This document shows positions 7,593 through 63,368 of a DNA stretch of 64,000 nucleotides, in pieces. Each line of letters begins with the position of its first letter. Positions within the stretch are counted from its first letter, which is position 1. A model generated the notes under the pieces. It had not been told where the DNA came from, did no database searches, and saw nothing but the letters and a program-made list of their open reading frames with translations. Both the position numbers and the translations under genes were made by a program. Origin of the DNA: Rhynchopus sp. YZ270_cl-10 (taxonomy: Eukaryota; Euglenozoa; Diplonemea; Diplonemida; Diplonemidae); assembly GCA_964035575.1 (NCBI GenBank), contig OZ037847.1:372001-436000 (forward strand). Reading direction: 5' to 3'.

Positions 7593-7697
7593 GTCAAAGA
7601 GAGTGAGAGATATGGGGAATAAAGGAGTGCGCAACCTTGAAACAAATCCTTCTTTTTTTTTGTAAATACAAGAACAAACAGTGTTTTTTTCTACAAA

Positions 7698-23494: not shown

Positions 23495-23555
23495 CAGATG
23501 CGATAACAAAACACTGACTCTCTTTTTAAATGCTTATGTTAAACTGACCCCCTTT

Positions 23556-38160: not shown

Positions 38161-39740
38161 GAAAAAGGGAATGTATGAAGGGGTACTCGCATCCTACAAC
38201 TGATAGAGCACATCACAGAAATGTTTCTCTTTATAGTTCCCACCTCTGTGATACAGTGTCTATCAGCTAAGGTACGACATGCCAACGCTTCCTTGCAGAA
38301 TACAAGAAAGAAAGGTGGCAATATGGGTTGTAAAGCCTTTTTGACGGCAAAAACAAGGCAAACACAAAAAAAAACTAGATGAACAAATATGTATGGGGTA
38401 TTCGATAGTGTAGCCTATCAATACTAAAATGCTTGAAAGATTGAATGCGTCTCACGAGGGTGCGCACATCTTTCTAACGAATCAAAACATACGAAAAATG
38501 ATTTTTGTAAAACAATATGGTAAAAAACGCCTCTCGCAGGCACACAGACCATCCGTGGGTTATCGAAGCACGGAGTGTTGCTGCGCTTTTGGGTGTTGCT
38601 TGACAGAGGCACACAGCATTCCTTGGATTCAAGGTGCTGTACGAAAAAAGAAAAAGTAAGATGTGCCGCTAAATGCACCTACACATCTTTAAACACGAGC
38701 AAAAAATAGAATCGCCGTTTTGCAATTGTTGCGCATCGCTCAAACCGGAGAAACTGTTGTGTGAAGAAAACTTCAAGAAGAAAAAAACGGATACCGTTTC
38801 AAAACAAAGTTGGCAAAAAGTACCACACTCGAAAAAAAAACAAAAACAAAAGTTGTTTCCAATACTTTCGATTCTACAGAAGAGAACGATACTACAGAAC
38901 TTGATAGATGAATGTGTCTCACGTCCACACAGACACAGAGTTCTTTTCTTATCATTTTGCATGCGTGTCGTTTAACACATGCAGGGGGGTAAACACTTTC
39001 TGGGATATTTCTACTCGGTAAAGTGGTGGGTAGAAAATATGCCGAAAGCTGTCTCTTCGGAACCACGTTTGTTGAACGGTTCACTGGGAACGGAAACAGG
39101 GAATGGAGGAAAGGGGGAAAATAAAAAAAAGAGACCCTCGCTGACGCGAGAGCAAACTATTCGTTGGATGTAGGTTACAGTGAAGAAAAATAAAAAACGT
39201 TGGTATGTTGGTACAGATGCTTAGGATGAATTGCTATACTCCAAATATGTTTTGTGTCCAAAAACGTCGCCAAATTACATCAAAATCCGAAATCTGCTAA
39301 ACTTATCTGCACGCAAAACTATTTGGAGTACAGAATGATGGAGGTGTCCATCAGTATGTTGATCGTGCAATACGGGGAGCGGGATTTCACAACTTTTGAC
39401 AATTTTTCACACCCAAAAAAGTCAAGCAAAGCTGACAAAAGTTGGTGCACAGATGTGAAGAGTTGTGAAACCCCACCCTCGTACAGCATCAGTTGATGTA
39501 CAAAAATAAAATGTTAGCCTGCAAACACCCATGGGTATATGCAGGCACAAACCAAAAGAAAGCAAATAAGAAATGTAAAATTCATTGTGCAGCGCACAAC
39601 ATCTAATCGATCGAGAGTAAAAATAAAAAACAGTTTTGTGTAAGCTGAACCTAAGTCTCGCTCATCAAAACAAAAGGGGCGGGGGGGTGTTTGGTTGGTA
39701 TGAGCTGGAACCAGTCGACGATACCACGTCCAGCTGCAAA
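38161..39740 (-). repeat. diverged relic of the array's intergenic unit
   Basis: This stretch aligns with the intergenic part of the 6292-bp array unit (from 44661 on) but with scattered substitutions and three large indels. It lacks about 80 bases present in the unit after 38605. It has about 200 extra bases at 38765-38965 and about 130 extra bases at 39360-39500. It contains a family B copy near 38527-38580 and a family C head near 39640. It marks the old left border of the array; no remnant of a further oxidase gene is seen beyond it. Confidence 0.7.
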
Positions 39741-40166: not shown

Positions 40167-43100
40167 CTAAGGCTCGTTCGCGGCCACAGGGGTTTGCACA
40201 TCGAATTCAAACCAGAGCTTGTCGCAGGTGATGATGTCGGTGGGTTCGAAGACGGTGTGGGTGCCGACCTGGGTGCCGTGGGTGGGTCCGCGGCAGTGGG
40301 AAGCATCGACACCGAGCTCGAGGAGGAACTTTGCGCCGACCTTGCCTTCGTCCTGCCAGCAGGGGAAGACGGACTTGGAGCAGGATCCGCTGTAGGCGTA
40401 GAGGCCGGGGGTCGTGCGTGAGACCTTCTCGCAGATGCCCTCGTTGTGGTGTGCAAGGCTGCCGTTGTACGTGAACTTCAGCGTCGCCTGCCCAGCGTCA
40501 AACGGCTTGTCCCTTGGCGCAAGAATCACCATGGCATCACCGTCCCAGTTCAACACAGGGGTGAAGGTGTCGTCACCCTGCGTCACCTCCAACTTCACAT
40601 TCGACAGATGCTTTGTGTTCAAGGTGAAGTCCCAGGCACGGTGGTTCAGCACCAAGTCCATGGTGCATTCCGCACGGAAGGTCTTCGTCGCAACGTCAGG
40701 GTCAATGCGGAGGCGGGTGTTCAAAGGGTACATCATCTGCGATGCGTTCGCTGCCGTTCTCGGGTCTGTGCCCCAAGAGAAGTCGCCGTTCTCGATGTTG
40801 ACAATCTGTGGGGCCGGGATCCCGTACTTCGCTTCGAGGATCTTCTCCATCTCCGTGAAGGCACCTTCCACCCAGCCTTGGGCTCCACTGTAGGCCTCAC
40901 CTGCAACGAAGACAGAGTCCCAGATGTGGGGCTGTCTGATGAAGGGCATCTTGTCGGGCACGAGGAAGCCTGCCTTCCATGCGTGGTAACCTCCTCCGAA
41001 GGGGTCGGATCCCCAGTCCTGGAAGGCAGCGGCGTAGGGGGTGCCGATCTTCTCCGCAACCTCTGGGGGGTGCATCTGCCTGAGCTGTGCAAGCCCCACC
41101 TCCACCATGCGCTGCGAAGGGACCGGGTACGACGGCAGGCTGTCGTGCGCCGCCTGAAGACGTGCGCTCTTCGCAATTGCCTTCGTCGGTGTCCCCTTGA
41201 AGGACTGCTCCGTCCCCTTGCTTGCAAGGATGTCCTTTGCCTTCTGCAGAACAGACTTCGTAAGCTTCTCCTTCAACACCTTCACCAGATCGCATCCGTG
41301 CTTCTCTGTGAAGTCACGCTGGATCGCAAGCCACTCCTTCAGGCTCGTCACCGCCTCCAGCACCTCAAAGATCGCAGCATCGTCGACAGTGCCGCTCATC
41401 GCAGTGTACAGACGGTCTGCAGGGGCGCCAGGGCATGTTGTGTTGTTGAAGTCGATCTTCTTGGCCGCAAGGATGTCCTTTGCTTTCGTCATTTCACATG
41501 CTGTGAGCTCCTCGGTGATGGCCTTGAGGAGGCTGCCGTCGTAGAAGGTGGGGTACTTCTGGGCGAAGTCGCGTTGCGTGGCACGCCAGTCGGCGGCACT
41601 GCGCATGGCAGAGAGCTCGTTGTAGAGGCCGTCCTCGTCGGTGCCGAAGCCCTTCATTGCCTTGTAGAGGCGGTCTGCCTTGCCGCTGTCGTGCTTGAAG
41701 ATGTCTGCTGTGGTGCTGGTGCTGGTCTGCACTCCGGTGTTGCCCACAATGTTGTATTTGTCAGAGCCGTAGCCGGTCTGGCTGTTGTAGCTCCCAGCGT
41801 CGCTTTCGAGCTGGATGCCCTCTGTCGACTCAAAGGTCTTCCAGAACGGCACCGTGCGCATGTCGTTGTAGGACGCAAGGAGGAGACCGTGCTGGTTCGT
41901 CTGGTCCACACCGAAGTAGTACGTCTGGCGCAGGGGAAGCGTCGTCACAGAGTGCGGGATGTTCGTGGTGGCGGAGTCGTCGCCAGGCTTGAGCCACCAC
42001 GGCTTCTCAAAGGCCATGAGCAGCTTCAGTGCTGGGGACGGGATGACTGCCTCAATGTTGCTGCGCCACTCCGCGTTGGCCGGGTTGTACTTCGAGAAGA
42101 ACGGCATCTCCTGGTCAAGGAGCTCAAGGGCACGGCGCGGCATCGCCAGGATAATGCTCTTGGCACGCACCTTCGAGGTCTTCGGGTGCTCCCCGTCGCG
42201 CAGGAACTGCGGTGGTGTCTTGAAGGTCAGCTCGTAGATGGGCTTCCCCGCCTTCGCACACCACACCTTCTCGAAGGACACCAGCGCGTTGCGTGTCGTG
42301 ATCGACCCGCCGTAGGAGAGGTACTTGCTTGCAGGCACCTTCAGCAGGTTCTCGAACCCGCCTGCGACAGTCTTGTACGTCGCGTCTGCGCCAAAGTCAC
42401 CCAAGATGTACGGGAAGGCCTCCGCCGCGTTCCAGTTCAGCGTGTTGCTGTAGTAGCCTCCCGAGTCTGCCACGAAGTTGTACGTCTCCTGGTCAAGCAT
42501 CTCAAGCATCAGGTTCCAGAACCCGATGGAGTACAGGAACTGGCCCGCGTAGATCGAGTCGCTCCCGTTGTCGGCCTTCACAAGGTACTGCACGGTGCGC
42601 TTGATCTCGTCCCACACACTCGTCTGTTCCTTCGTCGGCAGGCTGGTGATCTCGGCCATGTTGCACACAGTGTCCCCGTTGCAGAGCGTGTACTGGAAGT
42701 TTGCCGCACACAGGATGCGGTCCATCTGTGCCTTCAGGATTGTCTCCATTGTGTCGGTGATCTTGTTTCCAGACTCAGGGAAGTAGCGCACATCTGCAGT
42801 CTTGTTCGCAAAGTCCTCTGCCGTGTAGCGCGAGCCACGCAGGTAGAAGAGCGACTGGTCATCGGAACCCATCGGGAAGTTGATGGAGCGGAGCGAGCCT
42901 TCGGACTGGAACTTCTCGATGTAGCCGTTGACAAGCGTCTGCTGGTTCAGGTAGCGCATGCCGCCAAGCTCTGCCGCAACGTTCATGTTCGGGAGCTTGA
43001 TGGACCAGAGACGTCCGCAGACACGGTCGCTCATCTCGTAGATGCCTGTGGTCTGGTAGGGCAGCTCCGATGTGCCGCCTGCGTGCTCATCGGGCACAAC

Positions 43101-44492
43101 CATGCGCATGCCTGCGTACAGCCCTGCCGCACCTGCACCAATGATCGCCACGTCAACCTCCTCGTCCTGCGCAATCTCTGTCTTCATGTTCTTGTGCGTG
43201 TCAAACACGTAGTCCCAGTCCACCTTGAACTGCGCCGTCAGACGCTGCTCCAGGTTCGGGTCCGTTGCCTGCACCGGTGGTGTCGTGTCGTACTGGTTGA
43301 GTGCGTCGTACGGCTTCCCCTCGAGCATGTGTGCAATCCATTCTCCAAGTGTGGGGATGAACTTCCCTGCCCATCCCGACGTGTAGAGCACAATGTCCTT
43401 GTTGTTGGGCACCGTGCCAGGAAGGGTGTCGAGGAGCATTGCCTTGCTGGGGTCCAGCGGGAGGCCGATGATGCAGTAGGTGGTTGGGGTCCTGTCGTCC
43501 GCGTCAAGACCGGGCATGTGGTTGCGCACGAAGTCGACTGTGTACTTGATGGTCTCCGTCCCGTCGCTCTGGCGCTGCGAGGGGTCGGTGAGGATGCGGT
43601 CCTGCCAGCCGGGGCACACACGTGCGTAGCCGGGGGTGTCCCAGGAGGCTGACTCGGTGAAGCCGTAGAAGACCTTCTGGTCTGCTGCAGTCGGGCTGTC
43701 GGGCTCGTCAAAGACGTACCAGGTGTTGTCCGGCACCTTCGTCCTGTCCTTGATCTTGAAGTACGTCGACGACATCTCCCACGTCGTGATCGGTGCCTGC
43801 AGCCCCCACTCCGAGAGGATGCTGCGGTTCACGTACGCACCCCCCGCAATGACAAGCTTCTTTGTGGGGAACGACTGCGTCACGCCGCCGTTCTCTGCGA
43901 TGACGGTGATCCCACCCTCGACAGTCGAGGTGAAGGTGTTCACAGTCTGGTTTGCCATCAGGGTCACATTCTCCATCTCCCCCAGCACCTTGATCAGAAG
44001 CGCCTGGGTACCGTGCAGGTCGACCGACCCTCCGTCCTTCTGCAGGAACCCTGCATAGCTCTCAGGGAGGTTTGCCACGTACGGGTGCGCTGCAGTGATC
44101 TCAGCACCGTTCTGGTAAGGCGTGTACGCAAGCTTCGCCTCGTCCATGGCCTCCTCGGCAGCAGCGACGCCACCCTCCTCAGAGACAATCTGCGAGTTCC
44201 CGAACCAGAGCGAGCCCTCCTCATAGAAGACGGGGGGGAGACCATGCGCCTTCGCAAGCGCGTTGAACTCATCCCACTGCTCACGGGCCAGCTGCGCCAT
44301 GTTGATCATGTCCGGCTCGGTGTACTGCAGGCGCATCTGCCTGCTCTGTCCCGCAGAGCTCCCCTCCTGGTTCTCAAACTCAAACTGCTCCAAAACCAGA
44401 ACCTTCCTCTGTGTGCTCTCCTTCATCACAGCGTAGGCCGCAGAAAGACCAACAGGCCCTCCTCCGACAATCACAACATCGTATTTCTCCAT
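40167..44492 (-). CDS. dual flavin oxidase-annexin-M1-like fusion, copy 1
   Basis: The 1441-aa product has five parts. (1) Residues 5-400 are a DAO-family oxidase like sarcosine/N-methyltryptophan oxidase: FAD loop VIVGGGPVGL, SSAGQSRQMRLQY (45-57), Cys340 where MSOX binds flavin covalently, and SGWAGKFIPTLGE (372-384). (2) Residues 447-900 start an amine/L-amino-acid oxidase: AIIGAGAAGL, AELGGMRY (507-514). (3) Residues 930-1095 are two annexin-like repeats, the first with KGFGTDEDGL (947-956). (4) Residues 1120-1225 complete the oxidase: WGSDPFGGGYHAW (1160-1172), GEAYSGAQGWVEGA (1198-1211). (5) Residues 1250-1435 resemble the N-terminal beta-sandwich of M1 aminopeptidases (FPCWQDEGKVGAKF), without the zinc-binding HEXXH. 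No signal peptide is seen. Likely reaction: oxidation of amino acids or N-methyl amino acids with H2O2 release; the annexin part may bind membranes. The ATG at 44492 is used because MEKYDVVIVGGG starts the fold. Confidence 0.88.
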   Translation of the reverse strand: MEKYDVVIVGGGPVGLSAAYAVMKESTQRKVLVLEQFEFENQEGSSAGQSRQMRLQYTEPDMINMAQLAREQWDEFNALAKAHGLPPVFYEEGSLWFGNSQIVSEEGGVAAAEEAMDEAKLAYTPYQNGAEITAAHPYVANLPESYAGFLQKDGGSVDLHGTQALLIKVLGEMENVTLMANQTVNTFTSTVEGGITVIAENGGVTQSFPTKKLVIAGGAYVNRSILSEWGLQAPITTWEMSSTYFKIKDRTKVPDNTWYVFDEPDSPTAADQKVFYGFTESASWDTPGYARVCPGWQDRILTDPSQRQSDGTETIKYTVDFVRNHMPGLDADDRTPTTYCIIGLPLDPSKAMLLDTLPGTVPNNKDIVLYTSGWAGKFIPTLGEWIAHMLEGKPYDALNQYDTTPPVQATDPNLEQRLTAQFKVDWDYVFDTHKNMKTEIAQDEEVDVAIIGAGAAGLYAGMRMVVPDEHAGGTSELPYQTTGIYEMSDRVCGRLWSIKLPNMNVAAELGGMRYLNQQTLVNGYIEKFQSEGSLRSINFPMGSDDQSLFYLRGSRYTAEDFANKTADVRYFPESGNKITDTMETILKAQMDRILCAANFQYTLCNGDTVCNMAEITSLPTKEQTSVWDEIKRTVQYLVKADNGSDSIYAGQFLYSIGFWNLMLEMLDQETYNFVADSGGYYSNTLNWNAAEAFPYILGDFGADATYKTVAGGFENLLKVPASKYLSYGGSITTRNALVSFEKVWCAKAGKPIYELTFKTPPQFLRDGEHPKTSKVRAKSIILAMPRRALELLDQEMPFFSKYNPANAEWRSNIEAVIPSPALKLLMAFEKPWWLKPGDDSATTNIPHSVTTLPLRQTYYFGVDQTNQHGLLLASYNDMRTVPFWKTFESTEGIQLESDAGSYNSQTGYGSDKYNIVGNTGVQTSTSTTADIFKHDSGKADRLYKAMKGFGTDEDGLYNELSAMRSAADWRATQRDFAQKYPTFYDGSLLKAITEELTACEMTKAKDILAAKKIDFNNTTCPGAPADRLYTAMSGTVDDAAIFEVLEAVTSLKEWLAIQRDFTEKHGCDLVKVLKEKLTKSVLQKAKDILASKGTEQSFKGTPTKAIAKSARLQAAHDSLPSYPVPSQRMVEVGLAQLRQMHPPEVAEKIGTPYAAAFQDWGSDPFGGGYHAWKAGFLVPDKMPFIRQPHIWDSVFVAGEAYSGAQGWVEGAFTEMEKILEAKYGIPAPQIVNIENGDFSWGTDPRTAANASQMMYPLNTRLRIDPDVATKTFRAECTMDLVLNHRAWDFTLNTKHLSNVKLEVTQGDDTFTPVLNWDGDAMVILAPRDKPFDAGQATLKFTYNGSLAHHNEGICEKVSRTTPGLYAYSGSCSKSVFPCWQDEGKVGAKFLLELGVDASHCRGPTHGTQVGTHTVFEPTDIITCDKLWFEFDVQTPVAANEP

Positions 44493-46458: not shown

Positions 46459-49400
46459 CTAAGGCTCGTTCGCGGCCACAGGGGTTTGCACATCGAATTC
46501 AAACCAGAGCTTGTCGCAGGTGATGATGTCGGTGGGTTCGAAGACGGTGTGGGTGCCGACCTGGGTGCCGTGGGTGGGTCCGCGGCAGTGGGAAGCATCG
46601 ACACCGAGCTCGAGGAGGAACTTTGCGCCGACCTTGCCTTCGTCCTGCCAGCAGGGGAAGACGGACTTGGAGCAGGATCCGCTGTAGGCGTAGAGGCCGG
46701 GGGTCGTGCGTGAGACCTTCTCGCAGATGCCCTCGTTGTGGTGTGCAAGGCTGCCGTTGTACGTGAACTTCAGCGTCGCCTGCCCAGCGTCAAACGGCTT
46801 GTCCCTTGGCGCAAGAATCACCATGGCATCACCGTCCCAGTTCAACACAGGGGTGAAGGTGTCGTCACCCTGCGTCACCTCCAACTTCACATTCGACAGA
46901 TGCTTTGTGTTCAAGGTGAAGTCCCAGGCACGGTGGTTCAGCACCAAGTCCATGGTGCATTCCGCACGGAAGGTCTTCGTCGCAACGTCAGGGTCAATGC
47001 GGAGGCGGGTGTTCAAAGGGTACATCATCTGCGATGCGTTCGCTGCCGTTCTCGGGTCTGTGCCCCAAGAGAAGTCGCCGTTCTCGATGTTGACAATCTG
47101 TGGGGCCGGGATCCCGTACTTCGCTTCGAGGATCTTCTCCATCTCCGTGAAGGCACCTTCCACCCAGCCTTGGGCTCCACTGTAGGCCTCACCTGCAACG
47201 AAGACAGAGTCCCAGATGTGGGGCTGTCTGATGAAGGGCATCTTGTCGGGCACGAGGAAGCCTGCCTTCCATGCGTGGTAACCTCCTCCGAAGGGGTCGG
47301 ATCCCCAGTCCTGGAAGGCAGCGGCGTAGGGGGTGCCGATCTTCTCCGCAACCTCTGGGGGGTGCATCTGCCTGAGCTGTGCAAGCCCCACCTCCACCAT
47401 GCGCTGCGAAGGGACCGGGTACGACGGCAGGCTGTCGTGCGCCGCCTGAAGACGTGCGCTCTTCGCAATTGCCTTCGTCGGTGTCCCCTTGAAGGACTGC
47501 TCCGTCCCCTTGCTTGCAAGGATGTCCTTTGCCTTCTGCAGAACAGACTTCGTAAGCTTCTCCTTCAACACCTTCACCAGATCGCATCCGTGCTTCTCTG
47601 TGAAGTCACGCTGGATCGCAAGCCACTCCTTCAGGCTCGTCACCGCCTCCAGCACCTCAAAGATCGCAGCATCGTCGACAGTGCCGCTCATCGCAGTGTA
47701 CAGACGGTCTGCAGGGGCGCCAGGGCATGTTGTGTTGTTGAAGTCGATCTTCTTGGCCGCAAGGATGTCCTTTGCTTTCGTCATTTCACATGCTGTGAGC
47801 TCCTCGGTGATGGCCTTGAGGAGGCTGCCGTCGTAGAAGGTGGGGTACTTCTGGGCGAAGTCGCGTTGCGTGGCACGCCAGTCGGCGGCACTGCGCATGG
47901 CAGAGAGCTCGTTGTAGAGGCCGTCCTCGTCGGTGCCGAAGCCCTTCATTGCCTTGTAGAGGCGGTCTGCCTTGCCGCTGTCGTGCTTGAAGATGTCTGC
48001 TGTGGTGCTGGTGCTGGTCTGCACTCCGGTGTTGCCCACAATGTTGTATTTGTCAGAGCCGTAGCCGGTCTGGCTGTTGTAGCTCCCAGCGTCGCTTTCG
48101 AGCTGGATGCCCTCTGTCGACTCAAAGGTCTTCCAGAACGGCACCGTGCGCATGTCGTTGTAGGACGCAAGGAGGAGACCGTGCTGGTTCGTCTGGTCCA
48201 CACCGAAGTAGTACGTCTGGCGCAGGGGAAGCGTCGTCACAGAGTGCGGGATGTTCGTGGTGGCGGAGTCGTCGCCAGGCTTGAGCCACCACGGCTTCTC
48301 AAAGGCCATGAGCAGCTTCAGTGCTGGGGACGGGATGACTGCCTCAATGTTGCTGCGCCACTCCGCGTTGGCCGGGTTGTACTTCGAGAAGAACGGCATC
48401 TCCTGGTCAAGGAGCTCAAGGGCACGGCGCGGCATCGCCAGGATAATGCTCTTGGCACGCACCTTCGAGGTCTTCGGGTGCTCCCCGTCGCGCAGGAACT
48501 GCGGTGGTGTCTTGAAGGTCAGCTCGTAGATGGGCTTCCCCGCCTTCGCACACCACACCTTCTCGAAGGACACCAGCGCGTTGCGTGTCGTGATCGACCC
48601 GCCGTAGGAGAGGTACTTGCTTGCAGGCACCTTCAGCAGGTTCTCGAACCCGCCTGCGACAGTCTTGTACGTCGCGTCTGCGCCAAAGTCACCCAAGATG
48701 TACGGGAAGGCCTCCGCCGCGTTCCAGTTCAGCGTGTTGCTGTAGTAGCCTCCCGAGTCTGCCACGAAGTTGTACGTCTCCTGGTCAAGCATCTCAAGCA
48801 TCAGGTTCCAGAACCCGATGGAGTACAGGAACTGGCCCGCGTAGATCGAGTCGCTCCCGTTGTCGGCCTTCACAAGGTACTGCACGGTGCGCTTGATCTC
48901 GTCCCACACACTCGTCTGTTCCTTCGTCGGCAGGCTGGTGATCTCGGCCATGTTGCACACAGTGTCCCCGTTGCAGAGCGTGTACTGGAAGTTTGCCGCA
49001 CACAGGATGCGGTCCATCTGTGCCTTCAGGATTGTCTCCATTGTGTCGGTGATCTTGTTTCCAGACTCAGGGAAGTAGCGCACATCTGCAGTCTTGTTCG
49101 CAAAGTCCTCTGCCGTGTAGCGCGAGCCACGCAGGTAGAAGAGCGACTGGTCATCGGAACCCATCGGGAAGTTGATGGAGCGGAGCGAGCCTTCGGACTG
49201 GAACTTCTCGATGTAGCCGTTGACAAGCGTCTGCTGGTTCAGGTAGCGCATGCCGCCAAGCTCTGCCGCAACGTTCATGTTCGGGAGCTTGATGGACCAG
49301 AGACGTCCGCAGACACGGTCGCTCATCTCGTAGATGCCTGTGGTCTGGTAGGGCAGCTCCGATGTGCCGCCTGCGTGCTCATCGGGCACAACCATGCGCA

Positions 49401-50784
49401 TGCCTGCGTACAGCCCTGCCGCACCTGCACCAATGATCGCCACGTCAACCTCCTCGTCCTGCGCAATCTCTGTCTTCATGTTCTTGTGCGTGTCAAACAC
49501 GTAGTCCCAGTCCACCTTGAACTGCGCCGTCAGACGCTGCTCCAGGTTCGGGTCCGTTGCCTGCACCGGTGGTGTCGTGTCGTACTGGTTGAGTGCGTCG
49601 TACGGCTTCCCCTCGAGCATGTGTGCAATCCATTCTCCAAGTGTGGGGATGAACTTCCCTGCCCATCCCGACGTGTAGAGCACAATGTCCTTGTTGTTGG
49701 GCACCGTGCCAGGAAGGGTGTCGAGGAGCATTGCCTTGCTGGGGTCCAGCGGGAGGCCGATGATGCAGTAGGTGGTTGGGGTCCTGTCGTCCGCGTCAAG
49801 ACCGGGCATGTGGTTGCGCACGAAGTCGACTGTGTACTTGATGGTCTCCGTCCCGTCGCTCTGGCGCTGCGAGGGGTCGGTGAGGATGCGGTCCTGCCAG
49901 CCGGGGCACACACGTGCGTAGCCGGGGGTGTCCCAGGAGGCTGACTCGGTGAAGCCGTAGAAGACCTTCTGGTCTGCTGCAGTCGGGCTGTCGGGCTCGT
50001 CAAAGACGTACCAGGTGTTGTCCGGCACCTTCGTCCTGTCCTTGATCTTGAAGTACGTCGACGACATCTCCCACGTCGTGATCGGTGCCTGCAGCCCCCA
50101 CTCCGAGAGGATGCTGCGGTTCACGTACGCACCCCCCGCAATGACAAGCTTCTTTGTGGGGAACGACTGCGTCACGCCGCCGTTCTCTGCGATGACGGTG
50201 ATCCCACCCTCGACAGTCGAGGTGAAGGTGTTCACAGTCTGGTTTGCCATCAGGGTCACATTCTCCATCTCCCCCAGCACCTTGATCAGAAGCGCCTGGG
50301 TACCGTGCAGGTCGACCGACCCTCCGTCCTTCTGCAGGAACCCTGCATAGCTCTCAGGGAGGTTTGCCACGTACGGGTGCGCTGCAGTGATCTCAGCACC
50401 GTTCTGGTAAGGCGTGTACGCAAGCTTCGCCTCGTCCATGGCCTCCTCGGCAGCAGCGACGCCACCCTCCTCAGAGACAATCTGCGAGTTCCCGAACCAG
50501 AGCGAGCCCTCCTCATAGAAGACGGGGGGGAGACCATGCGCCTTCGCAAGCGCGTTGAACTCATCCCACTGCTCACGGGCCAGCTGCGCCATGTTGATCA
50601 TGTCCGGCTCGGTGTACTGCAGGCGCATCTGCCTGCTCTGTCCCGCAGAGCTCCCCTCCTGGTTCTCAAACTCAAACTGCTCCAAAACCAGAACCTTCCT
50701 CTGTGTGCTCTCCTTCATCACAGCGTAGGCCGCAGAAAGACCAACAGGCCCTCCTCCGACAATCACAACATCGTATTTCTCCAT
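46459..50784 (-). CDS. dual flavin oxidase-annexin-M1-like fusion, copy 2
   Basis: The 1441-aa product is identical to that of copy 1, with the same domains and start (MEKYDVVIVGGG). It lies exactly 6292 bases to the right. No inactivating change is seen, so all copies should be functional. Confidence 0.88.
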   Translation of the reverse strand: MEKYDVVIVGGGPVGLSAAYAVMKESTQRKVLVLEQFEFENQEGSSAGQSRQMRLQYTEPDMINMAQLAREQWDEFNALAKAHGLPPVFYEEGSLWFGNSQIVSEEGGVAAAEEAMDEAKLAYTPYQNGAEITAAHPYVANLPESYAGFLQKDGGSVDLHGTQALLIKVLGEMENVTLMANQTVNTFTSTVEGGITVIAENGGVTQSFPTKKLVIAGGAYVNRSILSEWGLQAPITTWEMSSTYFKIKDRTKVPDNTWYVFDEPDSPTAADQKVFYGFTESASWDTPGYARVCPGWQDRILTDPSQRQSDGTETIKYTVDFVRNHMPGLDADDRTPTTYCIIGLPLDPSKAMLLDTLPGTVPNNKDIVLYTSGWAGKFIPTLGEWIAHMLEGKPYDALNQYDTTPPVQATDPNLEQRLTAQFKVDWDYVFDTHKNMKTEIAQDEEVDVAIIGAGAAGLYAGMRMVVPDEHAGGTSELPYQTTGIYEMSDRVCGRLWSIKLPNMNVAAELGGMRYLNQQTLVNGYIEKFQSEGSLRSINFPMGSDDQSLFYLRGSRYTAEDFANKTADVRYFPESGNKITDTMETILKAQMDRILCAANFQYTLCNGDTVCNMAEITSLPTKEQTSVWDEIKRTVQYLVKADNGSDSIYAGQFLYSIGFWNLMLEMLDQETYNFVADSGGYYSNTLNWNAAEAFPYILGDFGADATYKTVAGGFENLLKVPASKYLSYGGSITTRNALVSFEKVWCAKAGKPIYELTFKTPPQFLRDGEHPKTSKVRAKSIILAMPRRALELLDQEMPFFSKYNPANAEWRSNIEAVIPSPALKLLMAFEKPWWLKPGDDSATTNIPHSVTTLPLRQTYYFGVDQTNQHGLLLASYNDMRTVPFWKTFESTEGIQLESDAGSYNSQTGYGSDKYNIVGNTGVQTSTSTTADIFKHDSGKADRLYKAMKGFGTDEDGLYNELSAMRSAADWRATQRDFAQKYPTFYDGSLLKAITEELTACEMTKAKDILAAKKIDFNNTTCPGAPADRLYTAMSGTVDDAAIFEVLEAVTSLKEWLAIQRDFTEKHGCDLVKVLKEKLTKSVLQKAKDILASKGTEQSFKGTPTKAIAKSARLQAAHDSLPSYPVPSQRMVEVGLAQLRQMHPPEVAEKIGTPYAAAFQDWGSDPFGGGYHAWKAGFLVPDKMPFIRQPHIWDSVFVAGEAYSGAQGWVEGAFTEMEKILEAKYGIPAPQIVNIENGDFSWGTDPRTAANASQMMYPLNTRLRIDPDVATKTFRAECTMDLVLNHRAWDFTLNTKHLSNVKLEVTQGDDTFTPVLNWDGDAMVILAPRDKPFDAGQATLKFTYNGSLAHHNEGICEKVSRTTPGLYAYSGSCSKSVFPCWQDEGKVGAKFLLELGVDASHCRGPTHGTQVGTHTVFEPTDIITCDKLWFEFDVQTPVAANEP

Positions 50785-52750: not shown

Positions 52751-55700
52751 CTAAGGCTCGTTCGCGGCCACAGGGGTTTGCACATCGAATTCAAACCAGA
52801 GCTTGTCGCAGGTGATGATGTCGGTGGGTTCGAAGACGGTGTGGGTGCCGACCTGGGTGCCGTGGGTGGGTCCGCGGCAGTGGGAAGCATCGACACCGAG
52901 CTCGAGGAGGAACTTTGCGCCGACCTTGCCTTCGTCCTGCCAGCAGGGGAAGACGGACTTGGAGCAGGATCCGCTGTAGGCGTAGAGGCCGGGGGTCGTG
53001 CGTGAGACCTTCTCGCAGATGCCCTCGTTGTGGTGTGCAAGGCTGCCGTTGTACGTGAACTTCAGCGTCGCCTGCCCAGCGTCAAACGGCTTGTCCCTTG
53101 GCGCAAGAATCACCATGGCATCACCGTCCCAGTTCAACACAGGGGTGAAGGTGTCGTCACCCTGCGTCACCTCCAACTTCACATTCGACAGATGCTTTGT
53201 GTTCAAGGTGAAGTCCCAGGCACGGTGGTTCAGCACCAAGTCCATGGTGCATTCCGCACGGAAGGTCTTCGTCGCAACGTCAGGGTCAATGCGGAGGCGG
53301 GTGTTCAAAGGGTACATCATCTGCGATGCGTTCGCTGCCGTTCTCGGGTCTGTGCCCCAAGAGAAGTCGCCGTTCTCGATGTTGACAATCTGTGGGGCCG
53401 GGATCCCGTACTTCGCTTCGAGGATCTTCTCCATCTCCGTGAAGGCACCTTCCACCCAGCCTTGGGCTCCACTGTAGGCCTCACCTGCAACGAAGACAGA
53501 GTCCCAGATGTGGGGCTGTCTGATGAAGGGCATCTTGTCGGGCACGAGGAAGCCTGCCTTCCATGCGTGGTAACCTCCTCCGAAGGGGTCGGATCCCCAG
53601 TCCTGGAAGGCAGCGGCGTAGGGGGTGCCGATCTTCTCCGCAACCTCTGGGGGGTGCATCTGCCTGAGCTGTGCAAGCCCCACCTCCACCATGCGCTGCG
53701 AAGGGACCGGGTACGACGGCAGGCTGTCGTGCGCCGCCTGAAGACGTGCGCTCTTCGCAATTGCCTTCGTCGGTGTCCCCTTGAAGGACTGCTCCGTCCC
53801 CTTGCTTGCAAGGATGTCCTTTGCCTTCTGCAGAACAGACTTCGTAAGCTTCTCCTTCAACACCTTCACCAGATCGCATCCGTGCTTCTCTGTGAAGTCA
53901 CGCTGGATCGCAAGCCACTCCTTCAGGCTCGTCACCGCCTCCAGCACCTCAAAGATCGCAGCATCGTCGACAGTGCCGCTCATCGCAGTGTACAGACGGT
54001 CTGCAGGGGCGCCAGGGCATGTTGTGTTGTTGAAGTCGATCTTCTTGGCCGCAAGGATGTCCTTTGCTTTCGTCATTTCACATGCTGTGAGCTCCTCGGT
54101 GATGGCCTTGAGGAGGCTGCCGTCGTAGAAGGTGGGGTACTTCTGGGCGAAGTCGCGTTGCGTGGCACGCCAGTCGGCGGCACTGCGCATGGCAGAGAGC
54201 TCGTTGTAGAGGCCGTCCTCGTCGGTGCCGAAGCCCTTCATTGCCTTGTAGAGGCGGTCTGCCTTGCCGCTGTCGTGCTTGAAGATGTCTGCTGTGGTGC
54301 TGGTGCTGGTCTGCACTCCGGTGTTGCCCACAATGTTGTATTTGTCAGAGCCGTAGCCGGTCTGGCTGTTGTAGCTCCCAGCGTCGCTTTCGAGCTGGAT
54401 GCCCTCTGTCGACTCAAAGGTCTTCCAGAACGGCACCGTGCGCATGTCGTTGTAGGACGCAAGGAGGAGACCGTGCTGGTTCGTCTGGTCCACACCGAAG
54501 TAGTACGTCTGGCGCAGGGGAAGCGTCGTCACAGAGTGCGGGATGTTCGTGGTGGCGGAGTCGTCGCCAGGCTTGAGCCACCACGGCTTCTCAAAGGCCA
54601 TGAGCAGCTTCAGTGCTGGGGACGGGATGACTGCCTCAATGTTGCTGCGCCACTCCGCGTTGGCCGGGTTGTACTTCGAGAAGAACGGCATCTCCTGGTC
54701 AAGGAGCTCAAGGGCACGGCGCGGCATCGCCAGGATAATGCTCTTGGCACGCACCTTCGAGGTCTTCGGGTGCTCCCCGTCGCGCAGGAACTGCGGTGGT
54801 GTCTTGAAGGTCAGCTCGTAGATGGGCTTCCCCGCCTTCGCACACCACACCTTCTCGAAGGACACCAGCGCGTTGCGTGTCGTGATCGACCCGCCGTAGG
54901 AGAGGTACTTGCTTGCAGGCACCTTCAGCAGGTTCTCGAACCCGCCTGCGACAGTCTTGTACGTCGCGTCTGCGCCAAAGTCACCCAAGATGTACGGGAA
55001 GGCCTCCGCCGCGTTCCAGTTCAGCGTGTTGCTGTAGTAGCCTCCCGAGTCTGCCACGAAGTTGTACGTCTCCTGGTCAAGCATCTCAAGCATCAGGTTC
55101 CAGAACCCGATGGAGTACAGGAACTGGCCCGCGTAGATCGAGTCGCTCCCGTTGTCGGCCTTCACAAGGTACTGCACGGTGCGCTTGATCTCGTCCCACA
55201 CACTCGTCTGTTCCTTCGTCGGCAGGCTGGTGATCTCGGCCATGTTGCACACAGTGTCCCCGTTGCAGAGCGTGTACTGGAAGTTTGCCGCACACAGGAT
55301 GCGGTCCATCTGTGCCTTCAGGATTGTCTCCATTGTGTCGGTGATCTTGTTTCCAGACTCAGGGAAGTAGCGCACATCTGCAGTCTTGTTCGCAAAGTCC
55401 TCTGCCGTGTAGCGCGAGCCACGCAGGTAGAAGAGCGACTGGTCATCGGAACCCATCGGGAAGTTGATGGAGCGGAGCGAGCCTTCGGACTGGAACTTCT
55501 CGATGTAGCCGTTGACAAGCGTCTGCTGGTTCAGGTAGCGCATGCCGCCAAGCTCTGCCGCAACGTTCATGTTCGGGAGCTTGATGGACCAGAGACGTCC
55601 GCAGACACGGTCGCTCATCTCGTAGATGCCTGTGGTCTGGTAGGGCAGCTCCGATGTGCCGCCTGCGTGCTCATCGGGCACAACCATGCGCATGCCTGCG

Positions 55701-57076
55701 TACAGCCCTGCCGCACCTGCACCAATGATCGCCACGTCAACCTCCTCGTCCTGCGCAATCTCTGTCTTCATGTTCTTGTGCGTGTCAAACACGTAGTCCC
55801 AGTCCACCTTGAACTGCGCCGTCAGACGCTGCTCCAGGTTCGGGTCCGTTGCCTGCACCGGTGGTGTCGTGTCGTACTGGTTGAGTGCGTCGTACGGCTT
55901 CCCCTCGAGCATGTGTGCAATCCATTCTCCAAGTGTGGGGATGAACTTCCCTGCCCATCCCGACGTGTAGAGCACAATGTCCTTGTTGTTGGGCACCGTG
56001 CCAGGAAGGGTGTCGAGGAGCATTGCCTTGCTGGGGTCCAGCGGGAGGCCGATGATGCAGTAGGTGGTTGGGGTCCTGTCGTCCGCGTCAAGACCGGGCA
56101 TGTGGTTGCGCACGAAGTCGACTGTGTACTTGATGGTCTCCGTCCCGTCGCTCTGGCGCTGCGAGGGGTCGGTGAGGATGCGGTCCTGCCAGCCGGGGCA
56201 CACACGTGCGTAGCCGGGGGTGTCCCAGGAGGCTGACTCGGTGAAGCCGTAGAAGACCTTCTGGTCTGCTGCAGTCGGGCTGTCGGGCTCGTCAAAGACG
56301 TACCAGGTGTTGTCCGGCACCTTCGTCCTGTCCTTGATCTTGAAGTACGTCGACGACATCTCCCACGTCGTGATCGGTGCCTGCAGCCCCCACTCCGAGA
56401 GGATGCTGCGGTTCACGTACGCACCCCCCGCAATGACAAGCTTCTTTGTGGGGAACGACTGCGTCACGCCGCCGTTCTCTGCGATGACGGTGATCCCACC
56501 CTCGACAGTCGAGGTGAAGGTGTTCACAGTCTGGTTTGCCATCAGGGTCACATTCTCCATCTCCCCCAGCACCTTGATCAGAAGCGCCTGGGTACCGTGC
56601 AGGTCGACCGACCCTCCGTCCTTCTGCAGGAACCCTGCATAGCTCTCAGGGAGGTTTGCCACGTACGGGTGCGCTGCAGTGATCTCAGCACCGTTCTGGT
56701 AAGGCGTGTACGCAAGCTTCGCCTCGTCCATGGCCTCCTCGGCAGCAGCGACGCCACCCTCCTCAGAGACAATCTGCGAGTTCCCGAACCAGAGCGAGCC
56801 CTCCTCATAGAAGACGGGGGGGAGACCATGCGCCTTCGCAAGCGCGTTGAACTCATCCCACTGCTCACGGGCCAGCTGCGCCATGTTGATCATGTCCGGC
56901 TCGGTGTACTGCAGGCGCATCTGCCTGCTCTGTCCCGCAGAGCTCCCCTCCTGGTTCTCAAACTCAAACTGCTCCAAAACCAGAACCTTCCTCTGTGTGC
57001 TCTCCTTCATCACAGCGTAGGCCGCAGAAAGACCAACAGGCCCTCCTCCGACAATCACAACATCGTATTTCTCCAT
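52751..57076 (-). CDS. dual flavin oxidase-annexin-M1-like fusion, copy 3
   Basis: Identical in protein sequence to copies 1 and 2, with the same start and 6292-base offset. Leader and downstream spacer are also unchanged. Confidence 0.88.
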   Translation of the reverse strand: MEKYDVVIVGGGPVGLSAAYAVMKESTQRKVLVLEQFEFENQEGSSAGQSRQMRLQYTEPDMINMAQLAREQWDEFNALAKAHGLPPVFYEEGSLWFGNSQIVSEEGGVAAAEEAMDEAKLAYTPYQNGAEITAAHPYVANLPESYAGFLQKDGGSVDLHGTQALLIKVLGEMENVTLMANQTVNTFTSTVEGGITVIAENGGVTQSFPTKKLVIAGGAYVNRSILSEWGLQAPITTWEMSSTYFKIKDRTKVPDNTWYVFDEPDSPTAADQKVFYGFTESASWDTPGYARVCPGWQDRILTDPSQRQSDGTETIKYTVDFVRNHMPGLDADDRTPTTYCIIGLPLDPSKAMLLDTLPGTVPNNKDIVLYTSGWAGKFIPTLGEWIAHMLEGKPYDALNQYDTTPPVQATDPNLEQRLTAQFKVDWDYVFDTHKNMKTEIAQDEEVDVAIIGAGAAGLYAGMRMVVPDEHAGGTSELPYQTTGIYEMSDRVCGRLWSIKLPNMNVAAELGGMRYLNQQTLVNGYIEKFQSEGSLRSINFPMGSDDQSLFYLRGSRYTAEDFANKTADVRYFPESGNKITDTMETILKAQMDRILCAANFQYTLCNGDTVCNMAEITSLPTKEQTSVWDEIKRTVQYLVKADNGSDSIYAGQFLYSIGFWNLMLEMLDQETYNFVADSGGYYSNTLNWNAAEAFPYILGDFGADATYKTVAGGFENLLKVPASKYLSYGGSITTRNALVSFEKVWCAKAGKPIYELTFKTPPQFLRDGEHPKTSKVRAKSIILAMPRRALELLDQEMPFFSKYNPANAEWRSNIEAVIPSPALKLLMAFEKPWWLKPGDDSATTNIPHSVTTLPLRQTYYFGVDQTNQHGLLLASYNDMRTVPFWKTFESTEGIQLESDAGSYNSQTGYGSDKYNIVGNTGVQTSTSTTADIFKHDSGKADRLYKAMKGFGTDEDGLYNELSAMRSAADWRATQRDFAQKYPTFYDGSLLKAITEELTACEMTKAKDILAAKKIDFNNTTCPGAPADRLYTAMSGTVDDAAIFEVLEAVTSLKEWLAIQRDFTEKHGCDLVKVLKEKLTKSVLQKAKDILASKGTEQSFKGTPTKAIAKSARLQAAHDSLPSYPVPSQRMVEVGLAQLRQMHPPEVAEKIGTPYAAAFQDWGSDPFGGGYHAWKAGFLVPDKMPFIRQPHIWDSVFVAGEAYSGAQGWVEGAFTEMEKILEAKYGIPAPQIVNIENGDFSWGTDPRTAANASQMMYPLNTRLRIDPDVATKTFRAECTMDLVLNHRAWDFTLNTKHLSNVKLEVTQGDDTFTPVLNWDGDAMVILAPRDKPFDAGQATLKFTYNGSLAHHNEGICEKVSRTTPGLYAYSGSCSKSVFPCWQDEGKVGAKFLLELGVDASHCRGPTHGTQVGTHTVFEPTDIITCDKLWFEFDVQTPVAANEP

Positions 57077-59042: not shown

Positions 59043-62000
59043 CTAAGGCTCGTTCGCGGCCACAGGGGTTTGCACATCGAATTCAAACCAGAGCTTGTCG
59101 CAGGTGATGATGTCGGTGGGTTCGAAGACGGTGTGGGTGCCGACCTGGGTGCCGTGGGTGGGTCCGCGGCAGTGGGAAGCATCGACACCGAGCTCGAGGA
59201 GGAACTTTGCGCCGACCTTGCCTTCGTCCTGCCAGCAGGGGAAGACGGACTTGGAGCAGGATCCGCTGTAGGCGTAGAGGCCGGGGGTCGTGCGTGAGAC
59301 CTTCTCGCAGATGCCCTCGTTGTGGTGTGCAAGGCTGCCGTTGTACGTGAACTTCAGCGTCGCCTGCCCAGCGTCAAACGGCTTGTCCCTTGGCGCAAGA
59401 ATCACCATGGCATCACCGTCCCAGTTCAACACAGGGGTGAAGGTGTCGTCACCCTGCGTCACCTCCAACTTCACATTCGACAGATGCTTTGTGTTCAAGG
59501 TGAAGTCCCAGGCACGGTGGTTCAGCACCAAGTCCATGGTGCATTCCGCACGGAAGGTCTTCGTCGCAACGTCAGGGTCAATGCGGAGGCGGGTGTTCAA
59601 AGGGTACATCATCTGCGATGCGTTCGCTGCCGTTCTCGGGTCTGTGCCCCAAGAGAAGTCGCCGTTCTCGATGTTGACAATCTGTGGGGCCGGGATCCCG
59701 TACTTCGCTTCGAGGATCTTCTCCATCTCCGTGAAGGCACCTTCCACCCAGCCTTGGGCTCCACTGTAGGCCTCACCTGCAACGAAGACAGAGTCCCAGA
59801 TGTGGGGCTGTCTGATGAAGGGCATCTTGTCGGGCACGAGGAAGCCTGCCTTCCATGCGTGGTAACCTCCTCCGAAGGGGTCGGATCCCCAGTCCTGGAA
59901 GGCAGCGGCGTAGGGGGTGCCGATCTTCTCCGCAACCTCTGGGGGGTGCATCTGCCTGAGCTGTGCAAGCCCCACCTCCACCATGCGCTGCGAAGGGACC
60001 GGGTACGACGGCAGGCTGTCGTGCGCCGCCTGAAGACGTGCGCTCTTCGCAATTGCCTTCGTCGGTGTCCCCTTGAAGGACTGCTCCGTCCCCTTGCTTG
60101 CAAGGATGTCCTTTGCCTTCTGCAGAACAGACTTCGTAAGCTTCTCCTTCAACACCTTCACCAGATCGCATCCGTGCTTCTCTGTGAAGTCACGCTGGAT
60201 CGCAAGCCACTCCTTCAGGCTCGTCACCGCCTCCAGCACCTCAAAGATCGCAGCATCGTCGACAGTGCCGCTCATCGCAGTGTACAGACGGTCTGCAGGG
60301 GCGCCAGGGCATGTTGTGTTGTTGAAGTCGATCTTCTTGGCCGCAAGGATGTCCTTTGCTTTCGTCATTTCACATGCTGTGAGCTCCTCGGTGATGGCCT
60401 TGAGGAGGCTGCCGTCGTAGAAGGTGGGGTACTTCTGGGCGAAGTCGCGTTGCGTGGCACGCCAGTCGGCGGCACTGCGCATGGCAGAGAGCTCGTTGTA
60501 GAGGCCGTCCTCGTCGGTGCCGAAGCCCTTCATTGCCTTGTAGAGGCGGTCTGCCTTGCCGCTGTCGTGCTTGAAGATGTCTGCTGTGGTGCTGGTGCTG
60601 GTCTGCACTCCGGTGTTGCCCACAATGTTGTATTTGTCAGAGCCGTAGCCGGTCTGGCTGTTGTAGCTCCCAGCGTCGCTTTCGAGCTGGATGCCCTCTG
60701 TCGACTCAAAGGTCTTCCAGAACGGCACCGTGCGCATGTCGTTGTAGGACGCAAGGAGGAGACCGTGCTGGTTCGTCTGGTCCACACCGAAGTAGTACGT
60801 CTGGCGCAGGGGAAGCGTCGTCACAGAGTGCGGGATGTTCGTGGTGGCGGAGTCGTCGCCAGGCTTGAGCCACCACGGCTTCTCAAAGGCCATGAGCAGC
60901 TTCAGTGCTGGGGACGGGATGACTGCCTCAATGTTGCTGCGCCACTCCGCGTTGGCCGGGTTGTACTTCGAGAAGAACGGCATCTCCTGGTCAAGGAGCT
61001 CAAGGGCACGGCGCGGCATCGCCAGGATAATGCTCTTGGCACGCACCTTCGAGGTCTTCGGGTGCTCCCCGTCGCGCAGGAACTGCGGTGGTGTCTTGAA
61101 GGTCAGCTCGTAGATGGGCTTCCCCGCCTTCGCACACCACACCTTCTCGAAGGACACCAGCGCGTTGCGTGTCGTGATCGACCCGCCGTAGGAGAGGTAC
61201 TTGCTTGCAGGCACCTTCAGCAGGTTCTCGAACCCGCCTGCGACAGTCTTGTACGTCGCGTCTGCGCCAAAGTCACCCAAGATGTACGGGAAGGCCTCCG
61301 CCGCGTTCCAGTTCAGCGTGTTGCTGTAGTAGCCTCCCGAGTCTGCCACGAAGTTGTACGTCTCCTGGTCAAGCATCTCAAGCATCAGGTTCCAGAACCC
61401 GATGGAGTACAGGAACTGGCCCGCGTAGATCGAGTCGCTCCCGTTGTCGGCCTTCACAAGGTACTGCACGGTGCGCTTGATCTCGTCCCACACACTCGTC
61501 TGTTCCTTCGTCGGCAGGCTGGTGATCTCGGCCATGTTGCACACAGTGTCCCCGTTGCAGAGCGTGTACTGGAAGTTTGCCGCACACAGGATGCGGTCCA
61601 TCTGTGCCTTCAGGATTGTCTCCATTGTGTCGGTGATCTTGTTTCCAGACTCAGGGAAGTAGCGCACATCTGCAGTCTTGTTCGCAAAGTCCTCTGCCGT
61701 GTAGCGCGAGCCACGCAGGTAGAAGAGCGACTGGTCATCGGAACCCATCGGGAAGTTGATGGAGCGGAGCGAGCCTTCGGACTGGAACTTCTCGATGTAG
61801 CCGTTGACAAGCGTCTGCTGGTTCAGGTAGCGCATGCCGCCAAGCTCTGCCGCAACGTTCATGTTCGGGAGCTTGATGGACCAGAGACGTCCGCAGACAC
61901 GGTCGCTCATCTCGTAGATGCCTGTGGTCTGGTAGGGCAGCTCCGATGTGCCGCCTGCGTGCTCATCGGGCACAACCATGCGCATGCCTGCGTACAGCCC

Positions 62001-63368
62001 TGCCGCACCTGCACCAATGATCGCCACGTCAACCTCCTCGTCCTGCGCAATCTCTGTCTTCATGTTCTTGTGCGTGTCAAACACGTAGTCCCAGTCCACC
62101 TTGAACTGCGCCGTCAGACGCTGCTCCAGGTTCGGGTCCGTTGCCTGCACCGGTGGTGTCGTGTCGTACTGGTTGAGTGCGTCGTACGGCTTCCCCTCGA
62201 GCATGTGTGCAATCCATTCTCCAAGTGTGGGGATGAACTTCCCTGCCCATCCCGACGTGTAGAGCACAATGTCCTTGTTGTTGGGCACCGTGCCAGGAAG
62301 GGTGTCGAGGAGCATTGCCTTGCTGGGGTCCAGCGGGAGGCCGATGATGCAGTAGGTGGTTGGGGTCCTGTCGTCCGCGTCAAGACCGGGCATGTGGTTG
62401 CGCACGAAGTCGACTGTGTACTTGATGGTCTCCGTCCCGTCGCTCTGGCGCTGCGAGGGGTCGGTGAGGATGCGGTCCTGCCAGCCGGGGCACACACGTG
62501 CGTAGCCGGGGGTGTCCCAGGAGGCTGACTCGGTGAAGCCGTAGAAGACCTTCTGGTCTGCTGCAGTCGGGCTGTCGGGCTCGTCAAAGACGTACCAGGT
62601 GTTGTCCGGCACCTTCGTCCTGTCCTTGATCTTGAAGTACGTCGACGACATCTCCCACGTCGTGATCGGTGCCTGCAGCCCCCACTCCGAGAGGATGCTG
62701 CGGTTCACGTACGCACCCCCCGCAATGACAAGCTTCTTTGTGGGGAACGACTGCGTCACGCCGCCGTTCTCTGCGATGACGGTGATCCCACCCTCGACAG
62801 TCGAGGTGAAGGTGTTCACAGTCTGGTTTGCCATCAGGGTCACATTCTCCATCTCCCCCAGCACCTTGATCAGAAGCGCCTGGGTACCGTGCAGGTCGAC
62901 CGACCCTCCGTCCTTCTGCAGGAACCCTGCATAGCTCTCAGGGAGGTTTGCCACGTACGGGTGCGCTGCAGTGATCTCAGCACCGTTCTGGTAAGGCGTG
63001 TACGCAAGCTTCGCCTCGTCCATGGCCTCCTCGGCAGCAGCGACGCCACCCTCCTCAGAGACAATCTGCGAGTTCCCGAACCAGAGCGAGCCCTCCTCAT
63101 AGAAGACGGGGGGGAGACCATGCGCCTTCGCAAGCGCGTTGAACTCATCCCACTGCTCACGGGCCAGCTGCGCCATGTTGATCATGTCCGGCTCGGTGTA
63201 CTGCAGGCGCATCTGCCTGCTCTGTCCCGCAGAGCTCCCCTCCTGGTTCTCAAACTCAAACTGCTCCAAAACCAGAACCTTCCTCTGTGTGCTCTCCTTC
63301 ATCACAGCGTAGGCCGCAGAAAGACCAACAGGCCCTCCTCCGACAATCACAACATCGTATTTCTCCAT
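59043..63368 (-). CDS. dual flavin oxidase-annexin-M1-like fusion, copy 4 (array's 5' end)
   Basis: The protein is identical to copies 1-3 over all 1441 residues, but this is the first gene of the array in transcription order and its leader differs. Upstream of the ATG the other copies read CAAACAAACAAACC-type sequence once, while here a (CAAA)n run is longer and the next 150 bases are alignable yet diverged. The frame stays open upstream through this run (NKQTNKQT), but MEKYDVVIVGGG is the natural N-terminus. The abrupt change at the start codon suggests that coding sequences are homogenised while this outer leader is not. Confidence 0.88.
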   Translation of the reverse strand: MEKYDVVIVGGGPVGLSAAYAVMKESTQRKVLVLEQFEFENQEGSSAGQSRQMRLQYTEPDMINMAQLAREQWDEFNALAKAHGLPPVFYEEGSLWFGNSQIVSEEGGVAAAEEAMDEAKLAYTPYQNGAEITAAHPYVANLPESYAGFLQKDGGSVDLHGTQALLIKVLGEMENVTLMANQTVNTFTSTVEGGITVIAENGGVTQSFPTKKLVIAGGAYVNRSILSEWGLQAPITTWEMSSTYFKIKDRTKVPDNTWYVFDEPDSPTAADQKVFYGFTESASWDTPGYARVCPGWQDRILTDPSQRQSDGTETIKYTVDFVRNHMPGLDADDRTPTTYCIIGLPLDPSKAMLLDTLPGTVPNNKDIVLYTSGWAGKFIPTLGEWIAHMLEGKPYDALNQYDTTPPVQATDPNLEQRLTAQFKVDWDYVFDTHKNMKTEIAQDEEVDVAIIGAGAAGLYAGMRMVVPDEHAGGTSELPYQTTGIYEMSDRVCGRLWSIKLPNMNVAAELGGMRYLNQQTLVNGYIEKFQSEGSLRSINFPMGSDDQSLFYLRGSRYTAEDFANKTADVRYFPESGNKITDTMETILKAQMDRILCAANFQYTLCNGDTVCNMAEITSLPTKEQTSVWDEIKRTVQYLVKADNGSDSIYAGQFLYSIGFWNLMLEMLDQETYNFVADSGGYYSNTLNWNAAEAFPYILGDFGADATYKTVAGGFENLLKVPASKYLSYGGSITTRNALVSFEKVWCAKAGKPIYELTFKTPPQFLRDGEHPKTSKVRAKSIILAMPRRALELLDQEMPFFSKYNPANAEWRSNIEAVIPSPALKLLMAFEKPWWLKPGDDSATTNIPHSVTTLPLRQTYYFGVDQTNQHGLLLASYNDMRTVPFWKTFESTEGIQLESDAGSYNSQTGYGSDKYNIVGNTGVQTSTSTTADIFKHDSGKADRLYKAMKGFGTDEDGLYNELSAMRSAADWRATQRDFAQKYPTFYDGSLLKAITEELTACEMTKAKDILAAKKIDFNNTTCPGAPADRLYTAMSGTVDDAAIFEVLEAVTSLKEWLAIQRDFTEKHGCDLVKVLKEKLTKSVLQKAKDILASKGTEQSFKGTPTKAIAKSARLQAAHDSLPSYPVPSQRMVEVGLAQLRQMHPPEVAEKIGTPYAAAFQDWGSDPFGGGYHAWKAGFLVPDKMPFIRQPHIWDSVFVAGEAYSGAQGWVEGAFTEMEKILEAKYGIPAPQIVNIENGDFSWGTDPRTAANASQMMYPLNTRLRIDPDVATKTFRAECTMDLVLNHRAWDFTLNTKHLSNVKLEVTQGDDTFTPVLNWDGDAMVILAPRDKPFDAGQATLKFTYNGSLAHHNEGICEKVSRTTPGLYAYSGSCSKSVFPCWQDEGKVGAKFLLELGVDASHCRGPTHGTQVGTHTVFEPTDIITCDKLWFEFDVQTPVAANEP

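Follow-up and report, generated by a model that had tools for sequence, protein, structure and literature searches.

What does a single protein do with two different flavin oxidase domains, a piece of annexin and a peptidase-like tail? This question is raised by a gene on contig OZ037847.1 of the diplonemid Rhynchopus sp. YZ270_cl-10, within the stretch of 64,000 nucleotides analysed here (positions 372,001 to 436,000, the window; all coordinates below are positions in it). The gene lies on the minus strand at 40167..44492, with its ATG at 44492 and its stop at 40167-40169, and is copy 1, the 3'-most, of a tandem array. The frame of 1441 aa reported in a preliminary description of the locus is present, and its translation contains all the motifs listed there: GGGPVG, GAGAAG, KGFGTDEDGL and FPCWQDEGKVGAKF. 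In a Pfam scan of the whole protein, DAO (E 1.9e-24), Amino_oxidase (1.3e-15) and Annexin (1.5e-6) were assigned far beyond chance. We consider it fairly probable that the gene encodes a horizontally acquired, bacterial-type two-step flavoenzyme, which would turn an amino acid into an imino or keto acid that closes into a ring and is then aromatised.

Two flavin domains with bacterial counterparts

The first domain (DAO, PF01266; residues 1-395; 43308..44492, minus strand) found its best PDB match in NikD (E 2e-52), the enzyme that oxidises piperideine-2-carboxylate (P2C) to picolinate, with sarcosine oxidase (MSOX, 2.3e-12) and MTOX (2.5e-9) far behind. Residues 3-370 of the NikD chain (PDB 2oln/2q6u) align with it, and five key residues are kept: Arg54, Glu106, Cys340, Trp374 and Lys377 correspond to NikD Arg53, Glu101, Cys321, Trp355 and Lys358. 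Unlike NikD, the diplonemid domain is fused to an oxidase. This second flavin domain is an L-amino-acid oxidase (LAAO) of the lysine-oxidase type in two pieces, residues 442-888 (41829..43169, minus strand) and residues ~1081-1228 (40809..41252, minus strand; Tyr1169 and Gln1205-Gly1206-Trp1207), the latter completing the amine-oxidase domain, which resumes after an annexin-like insert. Its best PDB sequence match was the ancestral L-Lys oxidase AncLLysO (E 4.1e-102), in two stretches flanking the insert. Foldseek with an AlphaFold model of residues 441-1441 (pLDDT 59.9, pTM 0.47; no geometry was read from it) pointed the same way, the top match being 7eih (8.5e-32), followed by 8jt7 and 8jhe, all LAAO structures. 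Arg76, Lys387, Tyr268, Tyr516 and the GGYY loop of AncLLysO and CaLLysO (PDB 7eih, 7eii) are kept; the diplonemid protein differs from both in a serine at the Glu383 place, in the insert of ~190 residues and in its fusion to NikD-like and M1-type domains. A DAO-type domain in the first part and an amino-oxidase domain in the second were thus found by profile and PDB sequence searches, the second also by fold. The preliminary description had read a sarcosine/N-methyltryptophan oxidase followed by an amino-acid oxidase, of which the second assignment stands and the first gives way to a NikD-like domain; residues 1101-1230, set apart there as a segment of their own, belong to the second half of the oxidase.

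Two transcript-derived proteins from EukProt, P0003 and P0004 (78% and 68% identical), carry the NikD-like domain, the oxidase and the M1-type C-terminus in one frame, so that in these relatives the domains are not separate genes. They share the domain order of the window protein and lack its annexin insert, so that the order looked for in other protists was recovered in part. The label of P0003, 'Rhum', we take to stand for Rhynchopus humris, a diplonemid; the window protein, P0003 and P0004 are called diplonemid-type below. No other EukProt-derived protein was among the fused-protein matches, many of which carry no source name.

The fusion of a DAO with an amine-oxidase domain is itself bacterial. 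Among 7990 candidates that shared most words with the query, the only ones scored, 34 further proteins (P0005-P0038) had both flavin domains in one chain, and those with a named source came mostly from Bacteroidota and in one case from a Thermoanaerobaculia bacterium. The 80 bacterial loci analysed were the best of 169 for the fused query, hence favouring pairs, and overlap with these proteins: 10 were fused (L001-L008, L029, L036) and 65 had the two genes adjacent, 59 with the NikD-like gene first (median gap 12 bp) and 6 with the oxidase first. All of these fusions have the two flavin domains in the same order as the diplonemid protein. The statement that each family normally stands alone therefore fails for 75 of the 80 loci. 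Neither annexin nor M1-type matches were found in the open reading frames of the 80 loci, and no annexin Pfam match was listed for P0005-P0038.

A fairer test than these loci, albeit within one genus of related genomes, was provided by 59 genomes of the genus of Chryseobacterium angstadtii. An oxidase (E<=1e-60) was present in 15 of them, including the starting genome; the same 15 had a NikD-like gene (E<=1e-80), the two genes were adjacent in 15 of 15, and the remaining 44 genomes had neither. In C. angstadtii itself, only one such oxidase was found at E<=1e-20, and it directly follows the NikD-like gene. This species is the source of CaLLysO, for which a preliminary assay suggested lysine oxidase activity; the activity was shown for AncLLysO, the ancestral protein of the CaLLysO family, for which the reported assay product, after decarboxylation, is 5-aminopentanoic acid (PMC8405998). 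The main text of that paper mentions none of nikD, picolin-, operon, neighbor, piperideine or gene cluster. In nikkomycin biosynthesis, according to a paper citing the NikD work, lysine 2-aminotransferase leads to P2C, from which a sarcosine-oxidase-like enzyme makes picolinic acid (PMC4021061). Where that pathway has an aminotransferase to supply P2C, the diplonemid protein has its fused oxidase. P2C would equally be the product of a lysine alpha-oxidase. Because lysine oxidase and the nikkomycin aminotransferase would both feed P2C to a NikD-type step, conversion of lysine to picolinate is the most likely function of the bacterial cassette.

We found no characterisation of bacterial NikD-like/lysine-oxidase fusions in the literature, and in the open-licence PMC literature, as far as titles and the beginnings of abstracts go, no paper on the NikD/lysine-oxidase pair or on a diplonemid annexin enzyme. 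The neighbourhood of the cassette was rejected as a guide to its product, since the most widespread of the 25 largest neighbour families listed occurred in only 11 of the 80 loci, all of one genus. A neighbour family of 513-515 aa without a Pfam match occurred in 5 loci of several genera; L001 has a Ferritin-like protein (PF12902) and a GMC oxidoreductase beside the cassette, and none of six neighbour proteins (three in L010, one each in L013, L023 and L027) matched a Pfam family at E 0.01. In Tenacibaculum sp. MAR_2009_124, the fused gene is preceded, at a distance of a few kb, by another oxidase-like frame of 701 aa that stands by itself (L004:6471-8576, plus strand).

The M1-type tail and the annexin insert

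The C-terminal 213 residues (1229-1441; 40167..40808, minus strand) resemble the N-terminal beta domain of M1 aminopeptidases such as IRAP and ERAP1. As a cut-out domain they matched Peptidase_M1_N (PF17900) with 29.8 bits (E 7.6e-7; cut-off 25.8), the score falling below the cut-off in the whole protein (24.8), P0003 (23.6) and P0004 (17.9). Foldseek with a model of this domain (pLDDT 64.7) returned IRAP (E 3e-10), in agreement with the profile. Unlike IRAP and ERAP1, the diplonemid protein lacks the catalytic zinc domain, and no HExxH motif was found anywhere in the 1441 aa, which rules out a working M1 peptidase; of the M1-peptidase-like domain first described, the N-terminal type holds and the catalytic part is missing. 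By alignment the domain is common to all three diplonemid-type proteins, including P0004, which the C-terminal homologue search missed, so the short list from that search is no proof of absence elsewhere. We regard it as probably a binding or scaffold module. A 267-bp piece of its coding sequence (93% DNA identity) lies in frame in a 2253-aa frame of the same genome (L089:3054-9815, minus strand; G000:C7:723501-733400) that also has ankyrin repeats, repeated modules, PEP-mutase and protein kinase domains; capture of gene fragments therefore does occur in this genome.

The insert (residues ~889-1080; 41253..41828, minus strand) lies inside the amine-oxidase domain and splits it in two. Its annexin repeat (PF00191; Pfam match at residues 939-996) bears the KGFGT motif and passed the cut-off of 25 bits both within the whole protein (28.6) and as a cut-out (37.5); in our reading a second, degenerate repeat follows. 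Annexins usually have four repeats: here at most two are nested within an enzyme domain, an arrangement seen so far in this protein only and, like the bacterial cassette, a surprising part of the system. The claim that no protein with this domain order had been described thus holds for the insert and not for the fusion, which has bacterial precedent. In all eight aligned relatives (P0003, P0004 and six bacterial fusions) the insert is missing and the oxidase runs uninterrupted. A search for insert homologues among proteins of ~91-290 aa, a range that leaves ordinary four-repeat annexins outside, gave one match, a transcriptome annexin of 206 aa (37%). The source genome has several annexin-like genes, the best of which match the insert at 49-53% identity. 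One frame of 649 aa (L091:2389-4338, plus strand) has, by our count, five annexin-like repeats with Asn/Gly/Ser-rich linkers between them.

The insert sits in an oxidase loop of variable length and may anchor the enzyme to membranes through Ca2+, a docking suggested by one canonical-looking annexin repeat. That it is instead a non-functional gene fragment tolerated by the fold has, in our estimate, a chance only a little short of even. In favour of this are its absence from P0003 and P0004, the other in-frame captured fragment in this genome, taken from the window gene itself, and the single clear GxGT in the insert; against it stand the first repeat, which is above the Pfam cut-off, and the frame, which is intact with the insert in four gene copies. 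With ~190 residues, one Pfam stretch and one GxGT, the insert falls short of the four-repeat annexin core.

Active-site residues and the proposed reaction

In the NikD-like domain, the Cys340, Trp374, Arg54 and Lys377 positions are kept in all three diplonemid-type proteins. Across 109 bacterial rows of the alignment, the Arg53 place held 106 R and 3 gaps, Glu101 106 E, 2 Q and 1 gap, Cys321 107 C and 2 A, Trp355 106 W and 3 Q, and Lys358 K throughout. Cys321 we take to be the flavin-linking residue of NikD, and we likewise assume a functional role for Trp355. Arg54 and Lys377 correspond to the carboxylate-binding pair of this family, Arg-66 and Lys-448 in FsqB, which is said to bind like NikD (PMC6222107). 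In the oxidase, Arg513 (R76 of AncLLysO) and Lys823 (K387) were kept in 117 of 117 rows, and the AncLLysO variants R76A and K387A had undetectable activity (PMC8405998; by our count, the chain numbering in the alignment runs 2 ahead of that of the paper). The residues kept in diplonemids further include the plug loop GGYY (678-681), Y695, Y1169, Q1205, G1206 and W1207.

Taken with the bacterial pairing, which is why a two-step sequence is favoured, these residues suggest the following course. With O2 as oxidant, the C-terminal oxidase domain would oxidise an L-amino acid at its alpha-amino group; besides H2O2 this would yield an imino or keto acid, which would close into a cyclic imine; and the NikD-like domain, its FAD held on Cys340 by analogy, would oxidise the ring to an aromatic picolinate-type acid with release of more H2O2. 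Since part 1 is NikD-like, the second step is probably its own, with the imine from the oxidase domain as substrate. The bacterial ancestors most likely converted lysine to picolinate; the diplonemid-type proteins have an altered side-chain pocket and may use a related substrate. Ca2+-dependent tethering to membranes may be added by the annexin insert, and the M1-type domain probably binds or holds a partner as a scaffold. The preliminary description was accordingly right in spirit, in that it proposed two oxidations of one substrate, and probably wrong in placing an N-demethylation first.

Several observations weigh against this two-step route. The oxidase had no NikD-like partner in 5 of the 80 bacterial loci. 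The place of NikD Asp276, presumably an active-site residue, is taken by Gly295 in all three diplonemid-type proteins, while of 109 bacterial rows 100 have D there and 9 have A; alanine is already found in the nearest bacterial relatives L001, L002 and L004, where Glu383 is kept. The Glu383 place itself is Ser819 in all three diplonemid-type proteins, in contrast to Glu in 80 of 80 loci, 33 of the 34 other proteins and 113 of 114 bacterial rows, and Thr851 stands where all 114 bacterial rows have Asp. The single clear GxGT repeat of the insert and the long stem of the diplonemid clade (see below) are to be added. In AncLLysO, Glu383 binds the side-chain amine of lysine and E383D is inactive (PMC8405998). 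Because its Glu383 place is a serine, we refrain from classing the diplonemid enzyme among the lysine oxidases; its substrate may have changed.

A plain lysine-to-picolinate synthase, which would have kept the bacterial substrate and hold the lysine side chain by other residues, appears to us possible but rather unlikely. Tyr695, Tyr1169, the GGYY loop and Gln1205 of the lysine pocket are all in place, and an L-arginine oxidase with Gln at the Glu383 place still uses lysine at 18% of arginine (PMC11694665); the exchanges to Ser819 and Thr851, shared by all three proteins, speak against it. An identity as arginine oxidase was rejected: where that enzyme has Glu493, the window protein, like AncLLysO, has alanine (Ala1171, by our counting). 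We hold it to be improbable that each flavin domain has an unrelated substrate of its own and that the two were kept together only for regulation or as a source of H2O2 in defence or signalling. H2O2-making amino-acid oxidases often serve defence, and in one locus (L050) the neighbours of the cassette include PixA, an inclusion-body protein, and a haem-peroxidase-like gene; yet the joint presence and adjacency of both genes in all 15 carrier genomes of 59, and NikD and lysine-oxidase identities that fit one chemical path, argue for a common substrate. N-demethylation by a sarcosine/N-methyl-amino-acid oxidase followed by deamination is very improbable, as the matches to the sarcosine and N-methyltryptophan types were far under their curated cut-offs (101 vs 480 bits; 87 vs 257) and NikD is much closer.

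Origin, gene array and meaning

In a quick tree without bootstrap or outgroup (57 of 112 rows, thinned at 80% identity), the diplonemid-type proteins formed one clade (100), which joined four bacterial fusions (SH-aLRT 99) on a stem of 2.05 changes per site; the three of these four with a name were Flavobacteriaceae. The likeliest origin is a transfer of the already fused gene from marine flavobacteria. The M1-type tail would then have been gained before the three diplonemid-type proteins split, and the annexin insert after this split in the lineage of the window, unless it was lost elsewhere. A viral carrier was rejected, as none of the 78 pattern matches in viral_contigs was confirmed.

The array consists of four tandem units of 6292 bp whose coding parts are 100% identical; copies 2 (46459..50784, ATG at 50784), 3 (52751..57076, ATG at 57076) and 4, the 5'-most (59043..63368, ATG at 63368), are on the minus strand like copy 1, and copy 4 diverges from the other units from the base just upstream of its ATG. 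The source genome (152.4 Mb, 126 contigs searched) has at least four full copies, a lower bound as for all copy counts from this search; all are in the array, with no fifth among the matches listed. Beyond the last copy, at 38164..39491, parts of the intergenic spacer recur at 90-96% identity without a gene body, possibly the remnant of a lost unit. Other genes of the window on the same strand encode a 2OG oxygenase (6392-7645), a nitronate monooxygenase (18906-19997), an alpha-galactosidase (22292-23509), an FMO-like monooxygenase (31136-32812) and a GT8 protein (32936-34981). In the text of PMC9512073 amino acid oxidase occurs twice, both times as kinetoplastid D-amino acid oxidase, and lysine, annexin and picolin- do not occur; the main text of PMC10161547, on the Diplonema papillatum assembly, does not mention annexin, lysine, amino acid oxidase, fusion or picolin-.

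In its boldest form, which we put forward only tentatively and regard as doubtful in its entirety, our proposal is a one-chain, Ca2+-tethered synthase of pyridine carboxylates from amino acids, received already fused from marine flavobacteria, shifted in substrate from lysine and aimed at membranes by its annexin insert, with the bacterial cassette as an overlooked lysine-to-picolinate route in which an oxidase replaces the NikC aminotransferase. The pairing ties a lysine oxidase family that is structurally known and biologically unplaced to a NikD-type partner, and predicts that many Bacteroidota and some other bacteria convert lysine to picolinate, a pyridine acid that binds metals. For the diplonemids, an abundant marine group, the gene would show how they can adopt a bacterial enzyme, nest one domain within another and multiply the gene in tandem.
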